In this document: positions 3,960 to 47,149 of the stretch, in pieces
Numbering within the stretch: position 1 is the stretch's first letter
Layout of the letters: each line of letters begins with the position of its first letter
Assembly (NCBI GenBank): GCA_017415005.1
Contig: JAFQJK010000066.1
Span: 1 to 47,149, forward strand
DNA from: Rikenellaceae bacterium
Lineage (GTDB): Bacteria; Bacteroidota; Bacteroidia; Bacteroidales; Rikenellaceae
Reading direction: 5' to 3'
DNA: 47,149 bases
The notes under the pieces: model-generated
What the model was told of the DNA's origin: nothing
Seen by the model: the letters and a program-made list of their open reading frames with translations, nothing else
The model's database searches: none
Program-made: the position numbers and the translations under genes

Positions 3960-4376
3960 ATGATGAAAAAGATATTGTTCGTAGCGCTATTCATGCTTAT
4001 TTCCTTTTCAGACATCGGAAGCTCCGGACTTGGACACGAGAGGTTAGAGAAACGCCCCGGACACAACATCACAATCGAACAGCCATCCAATACAATGTGG
4101 ACGATCGCACGCTGCGCTTCGACGGCAAGGGTCGCTTCTTGCTGAAAGAATGACCAACATCCTTGGAATGAGGTGCTATAAGATATTCTTGCCGACAACT
4201 GCGACGAACCTGCATGACTTACCTGAAATCTTACTTGTCCTCCTGCCGCTGGAACCATCTTCAACGTGACGACGATACTGCCCGTGTCGTTGCAGGATCG
4301 GGACAAAACAGTCGTGCTGAAAGACGCCCCGGTGGAACGCATCGAAGAGTGGTTGTCCGATGAAGTCGATCAATAA
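3960..4376 (+). pseudogene. Decayed DUF5106-type gene
   Basis: The 5' end reads MMKKILFVALFMLISFSDIG, a typical signal peptide, but this frame ends at 4145 without a domain. A second frame across 4075-4152 gives IQYNVDDRTLRFDGKGRFLL before a stop. The 3' end, in yet another frame, gives LQDRDKTVVLKDAPVERIEEWL ending at TAA 4374-4376. It matches the C terminus of the intact paralogues (LLDRNKRVLVKDCPEDIIEAWL; LLDRDKTVLVRNRPVDVIEAW). So this is a DUF5106 thioredoxin-like gene broken by several frameshifts and deletions, directly upstream of an intact HTH-array gene, the same order as the intact pair at 5959-8307. Confidence 0.6.
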
Positions 4377-5958: not shown

Positions 5959-6870
5959 ATGATGAAAACAGACAGACATATACACAGCGTTCCGGATACC
6001 TTCTCTCCCGGCGGGTCCTTCGCTTGTGCCGGGCCTTCCGGGACGGCCGTTGCGCCATCGGCGGAGCTGCCTGCGGATTCCGTCCGGCGGCTGGCCGGGT
6101 TGGCCGAGCACTACTGGGACAGCTTCAACTGGAACGACGCCCGTTGGATCACCGAAGAATCGGCCCTGGAAGGGGCGTTCATGTTCTGGGCGGGTCTGCT
6201 CGGCCGGATATCCGAGACCGATGCCGCACGGCTTTCCGGGGCCCTGCTGCACAAGGTCGATTCCCACCCGGACATACAGCTCCTGCTGCTCGATGCCGCC
6301 GGATATTTCTGGCAGCACCCCGGTTCGATGTTCAGGAATGAAGAACTGCTTATTCCCATGCTGGAGACTGCCATTGCCGCACCCGGCATCGGGGATATCC
6401 ACAAGGCGCGTTTGCGTGCCCGGCTCGCCTCGGCGCTCAGGAACCGTCCCGGAACGAGGGCCGCGGACTTTACCTACACGACGGGCGACGGCACCCGTGG
6501 TACTCTCCAAAGTTTCAAGGCCGAAGATACCCTTGTGATGTTCTACACCCCCGGCTTCCCTGAGTGCGGCCGGATCGAAAAGTCTATCCAGCGCTCGGAG
6601 GTCTTCGCACCCCTGATCGCTTCCGGGAGATTAAAGGTGCTTGCCATATATCCCGGCGAGGACGCCGAGGCGTGGCGCGAACATCTGCCGCAGATGCCCG
6701 CGGGGTGGACCGCGGGGCACGCCCCGATGGAAAAAGACGGTACGGCAGCCTACGACCTGCCGGGCATTCCGGCGCTCTACCTGCTGGACCGCGATAAAAC
6801 GGTGCTGGTCAGGAATCGTCCGGTGGACGTGATCGAGGCATGGTGTGCGAAGCACGCGGACGACAGGTAA
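5959..6870 (+). CDS. DUF5106 thioredoxin-like paralogue, redox site and signal peptide lost
   Basis: Close paralogue of the gene at 84-1040: the segments HYWD-F/L-W, ASAL-NRPGTRAADFTY and AAYDLPGIPALYLLDR are shared nearly unchanged. Two things differ. The N terminus (MMKTDRHIHSVPDTFSPGG) has no hydrophobic signal or lipobox. The redox motif CPEC has become FPEC (F200, C203), removing the first, usually nucleophilic, Cys. If translated, the product is probably cytoplasmic and not an oxidoreductase; it may be a decaying copy or one kept for binding. It sits 63 bases after HTH-array copy 1 and 87 bases before copy 2. In-frame length and intact domain core argue against recent pseudogenisation. 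Confidence 0.75.
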   Translation: MMKTDRHIHSVPDTFSPGGSFACAGPSGTAVAPSAELPADSVRRLAGLAEHYWDSFNWNDARWITEESALEGAFMFWAGLLGRISETDAARLSGALLHKVDSHPDIQLLLLDAAGYFWQHPGSMFRNEELLIPMLETAIAAPGIGDIHKARLRARLASALRNRPGTRAADFTYTTGDGTRGTLQSFKAEDTLVMFYTPGFPECGRIEKSIQRSEVFAPLIASGRLKVLAIYPGEDAEAWREHLPQMPAGWTAGHAPMEKDGTAAYDLPGIPALYLLDRDKTVLVRNRPVDVIEAWCAKHADDR

Positions 6871-41370: not shown

Positions 41371-43686
41371 TTATTCTGCACCTTGATCTGGGTCAGGGTA
41401 TGTTGGAGGTATCCCCATTTTTATTTGTAGTTCATAGAGCGCACGTTTGGTATATCTTAATGGGTGCTCTATTTGCGTAAGGCTAAGTAATTTTGACAAG
41501 GCAGGTTCTATTTTTCGATTCACATAATACTCATATTCTGCCTCCATTGTTTGAGCGATTAAGCCATGATTATCATTATAGCTGGTTTTCATAGCATTGA
41601 TGAGTTCACGCAATATTTTACGGTCATCATAGCCTAAATTGTTCTTACGCACCAAGCATCTATAATACGCCTCAATATGATAGGGATTTATTTTGTTCTT
41701 CTCATAATTACTCTTTGCCAAAGATAAAGCTTCTGGGTAATTATGAAGTTGTACCAAAACCGTTACTAATTCTCTGGCAGCTTTAGAATATGATGCATTC
41801 TGTTCCAGTATATTACGAAATAGTCGCTCTGCATTTGGCAAATCGCCAGATAATCTACACATGAAGCCTTTGAGAAATAATTTGTCTTGTCCGTGCATTT
41901 CTTCCACTGCAACATCGAATTTTGATATATTCTGCTTTCGGGCTAAAGAGAGACAATACCAATAATTGATTTCCCGTTTTGCACCTTGATAAATACGGTG
42001 ACCTTCTTTGAGAAATCCTTCACAGAGTTCAATAACAGCATCATAATGCTCTTTGTTATATAACTCGATAATGGATTTTATTGCTACAGACGGTATAAGG
42101 TATTTGCTGTCATATTGCCCATTTTTTATTGCAATCTGAATTCTATATAAATAATCAGAGAGGTCTTCAGTTTCAACAGAATGTGCTAATGGCTCTGACA
42201 AATATTCTTTAGCCCTCTGCTCCATTCGTTCAGAAAAGCGGGCCAACGGTTTATAACCGGCGCGGTCAATATAATCGGCAACTCCGGCATCAAGTTGGAT
42301 ATACTCGTGATTTGGGCCAAAAAATTCGATTAAAGATAAATAATGCAGATCATCAATAAGTTGATAACAATTTTCCTTGAATTCGTCTCCAACAATCTTC
42401 AGTAACATATGATCACTAACAGACCCTAAAGATGCCAATAAAACCATGATATCCATCAACTTCAAATCATCAACACCTGTTACTGTACAGTAATCGATAA
42501 TTTCTTTTATCACTTTATCTCCAAACGCTATAATATGTTCTGCGTTTTTTCTCGCCAGCATTCGGCCGTCTCTATCAATGGTGTCAATAGCCATAAAGAT
42601 TTGTTCTGGAGAGCTATTAAGCTTGGTTGTCCAAAATATTACATCCTCTTTGTCGATGACCTGTAATCCAATATTTCGGGCATAAGCATAAAAAAGAGTT
42701 TTCCGATCAGCTTCACTTAAAGGATGTAGCTCAACGAATAAACAGTCTTTCCGATCTCGCACAAGATAGGTCTTAGGCGTTTGCACGCTCGCGATGAAGA
42801 GACCTATAAATTTTTGAAGAGATGGATTGGTTAGAATATCGACAAACCAATCTGCAATGTTCCCACTCGGAGAAATGCATGCGCCATTATCAATAATCAG
42901 AATATGTTGTTTACTTTTATATGCCTGATTCAACAGATCAACTGCAACACTGACTTTTTTATCTTTATCCCAAATATCCCATGAAAAATCAGTCAGATCG
43001 TATGATAACAAATAATAATTCAGTTGAAGAATAAAATTCTCAATGGAATCGCCTCGAGACAAAGATATGTCAAATGGATCTTTGGCGTACCCCAATTTAG
43101 ATTGAGTGAATTTTTTCAGGAATTTCCGCCGCCCAATATCCTTGCGTCCACTAACAACAATCGCCTTGATATCCTTATAGTTACTTGAAGAATATAATTT
43201 GCTTTCCAGGTACTCCATCTCATTATTGCGTCCAACAAATAACTCGTCACGCATTTTAATCTCAGGTCTCTTCCGATAGATAATCTCCCGTTGTTTCAGA
43301 ATAATATCACGGGACAATAATCGGGTATTCATGAAAGTTTTGAGATTCATCACCTCTTCTTTCGTAATCCAAGTCGGAATATTACTACACGTAAATTTGA
43401 CAGTAGGATCAATTATATAAGGGAAAAATTCAAGTTTCCCTTTCTCCATTCTGTCTCGAGCCTTTTCAATCTCAATTTTAACCCAATCCGACTCTAAAGC
43501 ACTTTGTGATATCAGAAGGATGAAAATATCGGCATTTCTGATATTTCTAAAAATTTCGTCTTTGCTTTTTCTTGCAGGTTCAAAATCGTATGCATCCACA
43601 ATACATACTGTTCGCCCTAAATTTTCGACCAGTGATTCAACGAAAGATTTTTGAATACTACTATGGGATATGAATGCTTTAATCAT
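41371..43686 (-). CDS. TIR-STAND-TPR-like protein, probable antiphage effector
   Basis: Protein of 771 residues. Residues 1-140 are a TIR domain: MIKAFISHSSIQKSF, ADIFILLISQSALESDWVKIE, with W68 and E72 at the place of the NADase Glu. Residues about 148-345 resemble a STAND ATPase: ELFVGRNNEMEYLESKL, then SGRKDIGRRKFLKKF in place of Walker A (Gly kept, Lys-Ser/Thr replaced by Arg-Arg), ILIIDN in place of Walker B, and FVELHPLSEADRKTLFYAYA. Residues 500-771 are TPR-like. TIR-STAND proteins sense phage and destroy NAD; here the ATPase site may be inactive. Two sampled 60-base lines are 37-38% GC against 52-60% in the next gene, and the strand is opposite, indicating transfer. Confidence 0.8.
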   Translation of the reverse strand: MIKAFISHSSIQKSFVESLVENLGRTVCIVDAYDFEPARKSKDEIFRNIRNADIFILLISQSALESDWVKIEIEKARDRMEKGKLEFFPYIIDPTVKFTCSNIPTWITKEEVMNLKTFMNTRLLSRDIILKQREIIYRKRPEIKMRDELFVGRNNEMEYLESKLYSSSNYKDIKAIVVSGRKDIGRRKFLKKFTQSKLGYAKDPFDISLSRGDSIENFILQLNYYLLSYDLTDFSWDIWDKDKKVSVAVDLLNQAYKSKQHILIIDNGACISPSGNIADWFVDILTNPSLQKFIGLFIASVQTPKTYLVRDRKDCLFVELHPLSEADRKTLFYAYARNIGLQVIDKEDVIFWTTKLNSSPEQIFMAIDTIDRDGRMLARKNAEHIIAFGDKVIKEIIDYCTVTGVDDLKLMDIMVLLASLGSVSDHMLLKIVGDEFKENCYQLIDDLHYLSLIEFFGPNHEYIQLDAGVADYIDRAGYKPLARFSERMEQRAKEYLSEPLAHSVETEDLSDYLYRIQIAIKNGQYDSKYLIPSVAIKSIIELYNKEHYDAVIELCEGFLKEGHRIYQGAKREINYWYCLSLARKQNISKFDVAVEEMHGQDKLFLKGFMCRLSGDLPNAERLFRNILEQNASYSKAARELVTVLVQLHNYPEALSLAKSNYEKNKINPYHIEAYYRCLVRKNNLGYDDRKILRELINAMKTSYNDNHGLIAQTMEAEYEYYVNRKIEPALSKLLSLTQIEHPLRYTKRALYELQIKMGIPPTYPDPDQGAE

Positions 43687-43800: not shown

Positions 43801-44829
43801 ATGAACAAGGAACACGCATACATCATCGAAGAGCTCGCCCGCGAACTCGGCGCCCGACGCGACGGTTCGGGCCGCAACCTCATAGCCCGGTGTCCGTACT
43901 GTGGCAAGGAGGGCAAGTACGGTGTCTACATAGGCCCTGAAACAGCCCGTAAGAAACCCTTCATGGCACACTGCTTCTCATGCGGGGCTTCCACGCATTC
44001 GCTGGAGCGCACCCTCGAAGCCCTCGGACGCATGGACCTGCTGCCGACGCCCACGACCGACCCCGAAGCCAAGCTCGACTGCAACCTGCTTTTTCCGCTC
44101 GATGCGGGCGAGGAGATCGATGACGAACTGGGCATCGTGGAGCTTCCCGAATTTTACAAACGCACCTTCCTGCACCCGTACCTCAAAGGGCGCGGATTCA
44201 CCTTCGACGACTACGAGTTCTTCCCAGTGGGTACGACGCGGGGCCTGAACTTCCGCTACGACGACTACGTGATCTTCCCTGTCATCGACTCCGGCGATAC
44301 GGTGGGTTACGTCGCCCGCCACCTCTGGCCCAAGGGTGAGATCGACGCTTATAACCGGCGGGCGAAATTCACGGGCGACTACGCCATACGGCGCTTTCGC
44401 AACTCCACGCAGAACGATTTCGTGAAGCTGCTCTACAACTACGATGCGGTGCATGAGGGCAGCACCGAAACGGTCATCCTCTGCGAGGGCATCTTCGACG
44501 TGGTGGCGCTCACGCGCAAGCTCGACCTCTACGATTCGGAGCGTGTGGCCGCCGTGGCCACCTTCGGAAAGAAAATATCGCAGGCCCAGATCTACAAGCT
44601 CCAGACAAAGGGCGTGCGCAACGTCGTAGTGGGATACGACGGCGACGCTGTGGACGCCACGAAGAAGACCGCCGAGGAGCTCGGCCGCTACTTCGAGGTC
44701 CTCGTGGCCGATATTCCCGATCCGACGAAAGACTGGGAAGACCTCTCCCCGCAGGAGATCTACGACATCTTCGCCTACCGCCTGCGGACACCCGTAGAGT
44801 ACAAAATCAACAAGATACAGCAACAATGA
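43801..44829 (+). CDS. DnaG-like DNA primase
   Basis: Protein of 342 residues with a zinc-binding start (C31-P-Y-C34 and C58-F-S-C61), as in CHC2-type primases, and a TOPRIM domain: ILCEGIFDVVAL (E229) and GYDGDAVD (D280, D282). The C terminus has no recognised helicase-binding domain. It lays RNA primers for lagging-strand synthesis. It overlaps the polymerase ORF by ATGA and lies downstream of the helicase, separated by the TIR gene. Confidence 0.85.
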   Translation: MNKEHAYIIEELARELGARRDGSGRNLIARCPYCGKEGKYGVYIGPETARKKPFMAHCFSCGASTHSLERTLEALGRMDLLPTPTTDPEAKLDCNLLFPLDAGEEIDDELGIVELPEFYKRTFLHPYLKGRGFTFDDYEFFPVGTTRGLNFRYDDYVIFPVIDSGDTVGYVARHLWPKGEIDAYNRRAKFTGDYAIRRFRNSTQNDFVKLLYNYDAVHEGSTETVILCEGIFDVVALTRKLDLYDSERVAAVATFGKKISQAQIYKLQTKGVRNVVVGYDGDAVDATKKTAEELGRYFEVLVADIPDPTKDWEDLSPQEIYDIFAYRLRTPVEYKINKIQQQ

Positions 44830-46532
44830 ACGATCTTATACTCTGGCTCGACAAAGAGCGCATCGACTACCGCGTCATAGACAACGAGGTGGTCGATATA
44901 CCGGAGTTCGGACGCCTGTTCTGCGCCGACCTTACGGGAGTGAAGAGTATCTTCCGTCAGAGGGGCGACGAACAGGTCTTCAACCTGATGGAAGATCCGC
45001 AGGCGCTTATCGACGAGGGTATCTTCCACGTCGCCTTTCCCTTTGGCTGCAACTGGTACTACTACGATCTGCGCGGGGAGTTTTCCATGAATATCCTGAA
45101 GCATGTCGGACGGCCGAAACCAGACAGTTGCAACGTGGAGTTCGTGAACCTCGGTGTACACACTCCCTATGAACTGCTCAACGCTTCGGGCGATATCGGG
45201 GTGTGGGTCCGCAAGGCCAAATGGATGGGCCATACCGCCCTCGGCATCTGCGACCGCAATACGATGGCCGGGACGCTGACGCTTCAGAAGGAGTGCGCCG
45301 AGGCGGGCATCAGGCACGTCTTCGGCTATTCGCTCGCACTGGACGACGACGGCGCGGAGGTTCCGATGAAGGTCTACTGTCAAACGCAGCAAGGGCTTCA
45401 GAACCTGCTACGCATCCAGAAGGCCGTTATGGTGGACCGCGAGGACGGAAGAATCGACATGGAGAGCCTCGCAGCGCATGGCTGCGGCAACGTCCTCGTG
45501 CTGGGAGTGCTCGCAGCGGAGTGGATGACGCAGAACCGACCGGCTATCGGGCGGCTGCGCGAAGCTTTCGAGGCCGTCTACTACCAGATAGATCCCACGG
45601 AGTTCAAGGCCGACCGTATCGACATACAGCGGTTGGAGAGCATGCGTCGATACTTCCATGAATTCTGCCGGGGCGGTGCGTTCGAGGTCGAGCCGGTGCT
45701 GATCCCGGAGTGCTACTACATCGACCGGGCTGACGCCCGCAGCAAGATCATCCTGAACAAGATCGCCACGGGCGCCGCGCACGAGCAGAGCGACGAACAG
45801 TATCTGCGCTCGGCCGGAGAACTGCTCGATAAGCTGCGACCGTTGTTCGACCCTGCGCGGTGGGATGTGGACGAGCTGTTCCGACGCATGTGTCGCCATA
45901 CGGTCGTAATCGCCGAGGGTGTTGAGGCAGCATATCGAACGGATACCGTCTTCATGCCGCGCTACGACATGACGCCGGACGAAAAAACGAAATATGGCGA
46001 TACGCATACGATGTTTCTCTCGCTGCTCGAAGAGGGTTTTTCCAAATTGGTCCCTGCGGGAAAAGAGGCTGAGTATCGAGAACGGCTCGACAAGGAAATT
46101 TATATCCTCGAATCGACGGACAACGTAGATTATCTGTTAGTGCAATACGACACCGTAAACTGGGCGCGCCGCAATGGTATCCTCGTGGGTTGCGGCCGCG
46201 GTTCGGCGGGAGGCTGTTTGGCCCTCTACCTGCTGGGCATCACGCTGATCGACCCCGTGAAGTACGGCCTGCTGTTCGAGCGTTTCCTGCTGCCCGAACG
46301 CGCCGGATTGTATGAAGCCCGCACGACGCGCATCGTGGGACGCATCGACTCGCAGGACAGTTACCGCCTCGGGCTGGAGAACGGCCGCGAAATTCTGCTG
46401 GACCGCGACGCCCGGCTTATGGTTCGTCGCGGTGAAAAGATACTGGAAGTATATGCCGACGAGCTGCGCGAGCAGGACGACATCCTGTTCGACAATCGCG
46501 ATTTATTGTTTGAGATAGACCGACAACTATGA
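44826..46532 (+). CDS. DNA polymerase III alpha, N-terminal part, with vestigial N-intein
   Basis: Protein of 568 residues. Residues about 103-300 are a PHP domain with lost metal ligands (VNLGVHTPYE, ICDRNTMAG against the usual H-x-H and TDHG). Residues 430-492 are the start of the alpha-subunit palm: YLLVQYDTVNWARR, GRGSAGG (457-463), DPVKYGLLFERFLLPER. A normal subunit would continue with the Asp motif; here 75 residues follow and the ORF stops. Residues 499-556 look like intein block B and what follows: LENGREILLDRDARLMVRRG and ADELREQDDILF. The TxxH residues are D and A, and there is no Cys/Ser start. The partner begins four bases upstream of the stop (ATGA). The holoenzyme probably needs both polypeptides. 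Confidence 0.75.
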   Translation: MNDLILWLDKERIDYRVIDNEVVDIPEFGRLFCADLTGVKSIFRQRGDEQVFNLMEDPQALIDEGIFHVAFPFGCNWYYYDLRGEFSMNILKHVGRPKPDSCNVEFVNLGVHTPYELLNASGDIGVWVRKAKWMGHTALGICDRNTMAGTLTLQKECAEAGIRHVFGYSLALDDDGAEVPMKVYCQTQQGLQNLLRIQKAVMVDREDGRIDMESLAAHGCGNVLVLGVLAAEWMTQNRPAIGRLREAFEAVYYQIDPTEFKADRIDIQRLESMRRYFHEFCRGGAFEVEPVLIPECYYIDRADARSKIILNKIATGAAHEQSDEQYLRSAGELLDKLRPLFDPARWDVDELFRRMCRHTVVIAEGVEAAYRTDTVFMPRYDMTPDEKTKYGDTHTMFLSLLEEGFSKLVPAGKEAEYRERLDKEIYILESTDNVDYLLVQYDTVNWARRNGILVGCGRGSAGGCLALYLLGITLIDPVKYGLLFERFLLPERAGLYEARTTRIVGRIDSQDSYRLGLENGREILLDRDARLMVRRGEKILEVYADELREQDDILFDNRDLLFEIDRQL

Positions 46533-47149
46533 GAATAACGAAGATCACGCACGAAAAAGTCCCGGCCGAGGTCCTCGACACGATAGTGGACGACGGCTAC
46601 TTGCAAGGCTCCGGCCGTACCATGGCGGATTGCGACATCGACTTTCAGGCCGACCGCCGTCAGGAGATCAAGGAGTATCTGGAACGCCGTTACGACACCG
46701 GCGGACGGCAGCGGGTCTTCTCGGCCGGAACGTTCTCTACGATGAGACTGAAAGCCTGCCTGAAGGACGTCTGCCGCGTGCATAAGATACCCGTGTCGCT
46801 GGCTAACTATATCTCGGCGATCATCGGCTCTTCTGATGCGACATGGACCGACCTGTTTCGTCTGGCGGCCCGCACGCCTAAACTGCGGCGTTTCGTAAAC
46901 GACTACCCGCAGGCTATCGAGGACATGCGTCCGCTGCTGGGACAGCCTCGCTCGGCCTCTGTTCACGCCTCGGCCATACTCATCACACCCGAAAACCGCG
47001 ACGGAGAGGCTGCCGAGTGCTTTGACTTCACGCCCGTAAAGCGTGTGGACGGCATGCTCGTGAGCGAGCTGGACGGCTACTCGCTGGACGAGGTGGGGCT
47101 TCTGAAGAACGACTGCCTCGGTATTCTGGAACTTACCAAGATACAGTCC
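46529..47149 (+). CDS. DNA polymerase III alpha, C-terminal part (partial), with vestigial C-intein
   Basis: Open to the window end (207 codons). Residues 1-30 have the size and pattern of a C-intein: V15-x-D17-x-x-V20-D21 falls at the same offsets as V15-Y-D17-x-x-V20-E21 in the well-known Nostoc DnaE C-intein as I recall it. Then TMADCDIDF (31-39) supplies the catalytic Asp motif of Pol III alpha, usually (S)MPDxDxDF, and RRQEIKEYLERRY, FSTMRLKACLKDVCRV continue the palm/finger region as in DnaE. The expected HN end of an intein is absent. It is the only copy of this half, so it must act with the N-terminal part. Confidence 0.75.
   Translation, partial: MRITKITHEKVPAEVLDTIVDDGYLQGSGRTMADCDIDFQADRRQEIKEYLERRYDTGGRQRVFSAGTFSTMRLKACLKDVCRVHKIPVSLANYISAIIGSSDATWTDLFRLAARTPKLRRFVNDYPQAIEDMRPLLGQPRSASVHASAILITPENRDGEAAECFDFTPVKRVDGMLVSELDGYSLDEVGLLKNDCLGILELTKIQS

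Follow-up and report, generated by a model that had tools for sequence, protein, structure and literature searches.

How can a replicative DNA polymerase function when its gene is broken just before the catalytic motif, and what are the extra segments found on either side of the break? These questions are raised by a 47,149-nucleotide stretch of DNA from a Rikenellaceae bacterium (contig JAFQJK010000066.1 of assembly GCA_017415005.1), analysed at its full length and called the window hereafter, which codes for a DNA polymerase III alpha (pol III alpha, DnaE) in two pieces. We consider it likely that a split intein at this point lost the ability to splice, while its Hint core was kept as the docking domain of a permanent two-chain enzyme. 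With slightly less assurance, we also favour a broader scenario in which a large phage family exapted the dead intein halves into a domain dedicated to heterodimerisation of its permanently two-chain pol III alpha, one lineage having later re-fused them as an inert internal Hint domain.

The first open reading frame (ORF1; 44826 to 46532, on the forward strand like all the polymerase features given below) codes for an N-chain of 568 residues that comprises a PHP domain (E 5.6e-12), the first part of the polymerase domain (PF07733, E 8.3e-27, profile positions 4-99) and an intein-derived tail. The C-chain is encoded by ORF2 (46529 to 47149), which is cut at the window end after 207 codons and matches PF07733 at profile positions 91-260 (E 1.6e-26); thus, one domain is spread over both ORFs, which overlap by an ATGA stop/start (46529 to 46532). 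The break lies between PER and the catalytic Asp motif, and the active site is shared between the chains. The N-chain carries the largely invariant GCGRGSA motif of the active-site loop (46188 to 46208), and the C-chain has the DCDID motif (46628 to 46642), whose three Asp positions are invariant in 44 C-chain N-termini, and a third conserved Asp in LLKND (47111 to 47113), whose role we take from general knowledge of DnaE; the loop motif and this last Asp were recognised in the sequence. The PHP and PF07733 domains, together with a GRGS loop and a catalytic Asp motif conserved across the two chains, identify the enzyme as DnaE. The initial annotation of the window had described the split and its ATGA overlap correctly, as well as an N-chain extension (residues 493-568, 46302 to 46529; the N-tail) and a 30-residue segment at the start of the C-chain (46529 to 46618; the C-head). 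In contrast, the (S/T)MPD motif that it placed after the break does not stand: the window reads TMADCDID, and most relatives have SLPD. The remainder of ORF2 was not found in the rest of the assembly, where the sole match was a stretch of 36% identity within a long ORF, probably the host DnaE.

As the window alone shows just a 4-nucleotide overlap and a cut gene, the split could be put down to an assembly error, a frameshift or a pseudogene. We regard this as practically out of the question and rejected it in view of its conservation, the selection acting on it and the separation of the halves: in the viral contigs and genomes scanned, the split and both tails recur in more than 100 Bacteroidales phage or prophage loci, down to ~46% identity, mostly with another gene between the halves and under strong constraint, including in isolates such as phage BS-TP1. 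These split-gene relatives include contigs from Bacteroides, Alistipes, Dysgonomonas, Prevotella and Muribaculaceae genomes, and one of them (L003) has the identical 4-nucleotide overlap, and its C-gene is complete, with an ORF of 729 codons. The N-gene and C-gene are at most 60 nucleotides apart in 22 loci and farther apart in 82. In most relatives 0.5-2.8 kb separate them, so the halves must meet as proteins. The gap genes, typed in representatives, code for PIF1/Dda-like helicases (a Dda-like helicase is annotated at this place in the BS-TP1 record), N6/N4 DNA methylases, NUMOD4-HNH endonucleases or a NUMOD1/GIY-YIG protein. The last two types, candidates for homing-type endonucleases, occur in the gaps of several relatives, and none lies between the overlapping genes of the window.

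N-genes ending in the tail numbered 113, a set that includes near-copies and is reduced to 60 by dropping those more than 93% alike. The residue after PER is Ala in 72 of them, Cys in 30, Gly in 10 and Ser in one, followed by GL. The C-head motif was detected in 92 loci, with a pattern that also picked up two non-family polymerases; its consensus is MKVxxIxxxxxxxPxxVxDCFVDxGYxxGxHGSLPDVDxDF. The same split is seen in marine phages of Cellulophaga and Tenacibaculum, whose tails are shorter, and a divergent viral contig found with the Cellulophaga phage N-chain (L161, from position 6001) codes for a related N-tail (hmmsearch E 3.7e-12). The polymerase of Bacteroides phage DAC19 (L038) is not split and bears another kind of insert, of ~60 residues, just before SLPDVDMD, near the same site. 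Polymerases of Mycobacterium and Gordonia phages align with ORF2 from its first residue (~30%); they were set aside, as both of those examined (Troll4 and Suzy) are continuous and insert-free there.

What are the tails? Alignment with inteins identified in the N-tail a block B hairpin (YRLGLENGREILLDRDARLMVRRG; 46362 to 46433) and a strand, ADELREQDDIL (46455 to 46487), that corresponds to the intein motif A-x-x-L-x-x-G-D-x-L. Pfam Intein_splicing matches 26 of the 60 N-tails (best E 7.6e-5); the match of the window N-tail (E 4.5e-4) is below the curated cut-off and begins at profile position 33, which indicates that block A is missing. When 177,635 PDB sequences were searched with the N-tail profile, five of the six matches up to E 10 were inteins (best E 0.008), which align at block B in the three alignments shown. 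The PDB search bears out the alignment to block B and the GD-x-L strand proposed in the initial annotation. With an extein-free N-tail profile, the only non-family matches among 19,308 ORFs from all loci, up to E 0.31, were L161, the Cellulophaga and Tenacibaculum tails and splice-competent-looking split inteins found at the same polymerase site in other phages. The N-tail profile scored 34.9 against the latter, and none of 200 column shuffles reached that value (mean 10.3, maximum 18.7). Single-sequence P values with this profile were 2.6e-5 to 5.3e-5 for the same-site inteins and 1.1e-2 for an other-site intein; Npu DnaE, the sequence of which we took from general knowledge, is also farther away (P 5e-3). 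The V-x-D-x-x-V likeness to C-inteins noted earlier for the C-head is recovered in the profile comparison, with a block F strand at V-L-D-T-I-V (46571 to 46588) and a score of 15.9 compared with a shuffle mean of 7.7, a weaker signal than that of the N-tail. The derivation of the N-tail from an intein is thus well supported.

The inteins at the same site were sought in phage contigs as a Cys following ERFLxPxRx. In other, distant phage contigs, an active-type N-half reads ERFLNPERN/CLTSNCNVMMKDGSYKNI...VYEIETEDGAIVELTGCHIVPVFRDGERIEVRVDGIMESDQLFVF (slashes mark the junctions) followed by a stop codon, and the C-half is encoded by a second ORF ~1.1 kb downstream, which begins with MRLSKIKSINKIDYKNKVYDLSFDKDNLF...SSVLIHN/SPPDIDIDF. 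This split intein looks splice-competent (PERN/CLT...TxxH and ...HN/SPPD). It is present at the PER/S site of phage DnaE in L137-L147, L157 and L158, and we found no literature report of a split intein at that site in phage DnaE. The gene between its halves has a single match, PF24308, below the cut-off, and may code for a nuclease-like protein. Close relatives of these phages (69-88% identical) read PER[N/D]SPPDIDIDF without any insert, and these empty alleles fix the point of intein insertion. The initial annotation had suggested looking for intact inteins at this site, which are present in other phages, and had held that unsplit, insert-free genes would weaken an intein origin; such genes exist, yet an empty allele is what one expects of an intein site.

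Additional inteins were seen elsewhere in these polymerases. In L141, the polymerase of which also has the active split intein, another one ends with VHN/SAAGSLL at the GRGSAAG site (~4031-4140). The C-chain genes of the two-chain polymerases of L052, L095 and L132 harbour a second, intact-looking intein (TADH or TSDH, VHN/C) at the CYQE[QD] site, that of L132 being much longer and perhaps containing an endonuclease.

One relative, L014, offered a view of both tails in a single chain. Its two genes are re-fused in frame, with ACC in place of the former start codon and stops across the junction in both other frames. In the tree, L014 is found within the split clade, adjoining the window sequence (support 100/99); hence, the fusion is secondary. 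Aligning N-tails and C-heads jointly put the C-heads in the wrong place, and an alignment of 20 rows (A2) was used for folding. The AlphaFold2 model of the L014 insert has a predicted local distance difference test score (pLDDT) of 72, with the C-head as one long strand (residues 81-107). All 50 PDB chains listed by Foldseek for this model are inteins, Hedgehog or intein-like domains, and so are all 50 entries listed by a second aligner (VIA; Z up to 6.8). A Hint fold, which the initial annotation had proposed to look for, is thus predicted for this natural fusion; the individual structural scores are moderate, and the evidence resides in the uniformity of the match lists. The weak resemblance of 17 of the 60 tails to the C-terminal domain of the DISARM protein DrmE (PF24957; best E 3.6e-4, alignment A5) was not retained as kinship: we take it as a short beta-motif resemblance because all listed structural matches are Hint domains.

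Could the tails nevertheless be an unrelated small beta domain that resembles inteins by convergence? Taken singly, the sequence scores are low and do not reach curated cut-offs, and the DrmE matches might be read in the same way. However, the PDB and Foldseek lists are intein-specific, the insertion site is that of an intact split intein, and the N-tail score exceeds those of all shuffles, which makes convergence very improbable. The split-intein origin put forward in the initial annotation is therefore supported by the Hint match, the intein sequence matches and the intact inteins at the same site.

We then asked whether the halves might still trans-splice. Compared with the active N-intein at the same site, the dead N-tail is missing ~32 residues, among them Cys1 and block A. 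TxxH is absent from all 114 tails of the alignment (one row more than the 113 above): the site reads D-R-D-A in the window (46401 to 46412), no Thr or His occupies these columns in the 60 members, and the His position is Ala in 58 of them and Ser in two. The C-head lacks block G, most of the stretch up to SVLIHN in the active allele being gone, and its terminal residue is Gly in 26, Ser in eight, Ala in six, Arg in three and Lys in one of 44 sequences, never Asn or Gln. To our knowledge, the C-terminal Asn/Gln step is required by all intein classes. With blocks A and G deleted and TxxH and the terminal Asn lost, trans-splicing should be impossible, and the loss of all splicing residues noticed in the window extends to the splicing determinants of the whole family. 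What is retained is the block B hairpin, the ADEL...D strand and the block F strand. Residual splicing by an unrecognised chemistry, yielding one full-length polymerase, could appeal to this conserved Hint core and split-intein layout, to the Cys found after PER in 30 of the 113 N-tails, and to the penultimate His and the Ser(+1) that persist in 25 and 29 of the 44 C-heads, respectively. However, most members have Ala after PER, and since the splicing residues are absent family-wide, we rejected this explanation, to which we give hardly any credence.

Loss of splicing might have left the tails as unused, neutral relics in the course of decay, and they do evolve approximately twice as fast as the exteins: pooled omega (ratio of non-synonymous to synonymous substitution rates, dN/dS) is 0.185 for the N-tail versus 0.098 for its extein, and 0.090 for the C-head versus 0.042 for its extein, from 13 and 11 pairs that are not all independent. 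Nevertheless, these values are well below 1 (dN 0.098 and dS 0.575 for the tail in the window-L003 pair), and Asp19 and Gly25 of alignment A13, as well as the Ala at the old His site, are near-invariant. Both tails are under purifying selection and are not freely decaying, so that neutral persistence appears even less credible than residual splicing.

The preferred reading, a dead split intein kept as a dock, can be laid out as follows. The ancestor of these Bacteroidales phages would have had a split intein between PER and SLPD, in a gene already fractured in two. Their lineage may then have deleted block A from the N-half, and block G with the terminal Asn from the C-half; the catalytic Thr and His of block B would have been replaced, ending splicing, while the core Hint strands through which intein halves find each other would have been retained. 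In the resulting permanent two-chain enzyme, which we presume to be active, the PHP domain and the GRGS loop would come from the N-chain; the catalytic aspartates and everything else would be supplied by the C-chain. The dead halves would pair in trans as a Hint-like dock that aligns the polymerase palm without splicing, and docking would be the role under selection. Such a docking function of the tails is probable.

Alternatively, the intein ancestry is right and the tails now serve otherwise, for instance by binding the Dda-like helicase, the clamp or DNA, with the halves associating through the polymerase fold itself. A helicase gene is often found between the halves, and gp43A and gp43B of Aeromonas phage 25 co-purify and have polymerase activity with no intein-derived dock mentioned (PMC2988022), which indicates that a dock is not always needed. 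Against this, the two tails are conserved jointly, the re-fused L014 retains them as a single predicted Hint domain, and no helicase gene lies between the halves in the window, in other adjacent loci or in methylase-type loci. We consider a different role unlikely, although it is the more serious of the alternatives.

Several points weigh against a dead intein serving as a dock. The polymerases with the active intein form a distant clade in the tree, whose motif filter missed the Cellulophaga-type sequences, and the common descent of the inteins is therefore deduced from the shared site and profile similarity. The resemblance of the C-head to C-inteins is weak by sequence alone, as one of 200 column shuffles scored as high. 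The L014 insert model is moderate (pLDDT 72, template modelling score ~0.43, VIA Z up to 6.8), and L014 is a single 6.5-kb metagenomic contig. Finally, the full-length L014 model (pLDDT 56) was too poor for use and was discarded; it cannot say where the Hint domain sits on the polymerase.

How does this polymerase compare with known systems? The cyanobacterial split DnaE intein (Npu/Ssp) has a Hint fold, is split between the block B and block F regions and has DnaE as its host protein, three features shared with the phage tails. It differs by being active and, from general knowledge, by its insertion site, and its profile similarity to the N-tail is weak, as indicated above. In fractured genes, the break reportedly coincides with the intein site: the N- and C-halves of the intein each belong to an ORF of their own, and the breach harbours an endonuclease gene. 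Among the phages with the active-looking same-site intein, L145 and L157 share this layout, with a putative nuclease-like gene between the halves. The split intein of fractured genes is intact and trans-splices, whereas the Bacteroidales phage family, which does have separate N- and C-ORFs each with an intein half, is devoid of blocks A and G and of the catalytic residues; its halves are splice-dead. Fractured genes with split inteins are attributed to Dassa et al. 2009 in PMC10448857.

The split PolB3 of Methanobacteriales is another two-gene replicative polymerase, for which erratic intein excision was proposed (PMC4104785); intein remnants on the proteins are not mentioned in the part of that article available, whereas the phage pol III alpha keeps both conserved halves of the Hint core. 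Genes-in-pieces enzymes of phages, some of which are active as two chains (Aeh1 NrdA and phage 25 gp43A/B), are like the phage pol III alpha split in two, as is the T4 topoisomerase; their splits are put down to an untranslated insert or to a gene for a homing endonuclease, with no intein-derived dock described (PMC2988022). The split nrdA of Listeria phages A511 and P100 has intein traces at the break (PMC3653736), which lie in a 210-nucleotide non-coding spacer; in pol III alpha, they are on the proteins. The yeast HO endonuclease, considered with WHO, is a domesticated non-splicing intein-like element (PMC7282813), but what was domesticated there is the endonuclease, in the form of a stand-alone gene, and not a Hint core used for assembly. 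Inteins are treated as splicing switches in a review of recruited mobile elements (PMC8987985). The DnaE of 'Gratiaviridae' groups with phiST (Benler et al. 2021; PMC8008677), and the split-polymerase phages may overlap this group; neither a split polymerase gene nor an intein is mentioned in the accessible part of that article. Literature searches yielded no account of a split, intein-bearing pol III alpha in phages of Bacteroides or Cellulophaga and, in a partial library, none of a dead split intein that persists as the interface between subunits.

The polymerase genes of the window lie in phage or prophage DNA that also codes for a tape measure protein, a baseplate hub, a DnaB helicase and a primase. 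Between the genes for the last two, on the opposite strand, is a gene for a 771-residue TIR-NLR defence-type protein (41371 to 43686, reverse strand; PADLOC PDLC03015, E 5.8e-90).

Inteins are usually seen as selfish elements that splice or are removed. A third outcome is found here, in which splicing is lost and the self-assembling core is retained, apparently as the subunit interface of an essential enzyme. As empty, active split, dead split and re-fused states occur at one homologous polymerase site, the passage from parasite to part is testable. The dead halves might also find use as natural docking tags that do not splice, and annotation keyed on splice residues will overlook such relics. 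If the docking role is true, a mobile protein-splicing element has been turned into a structural part of a replicative polymerase.
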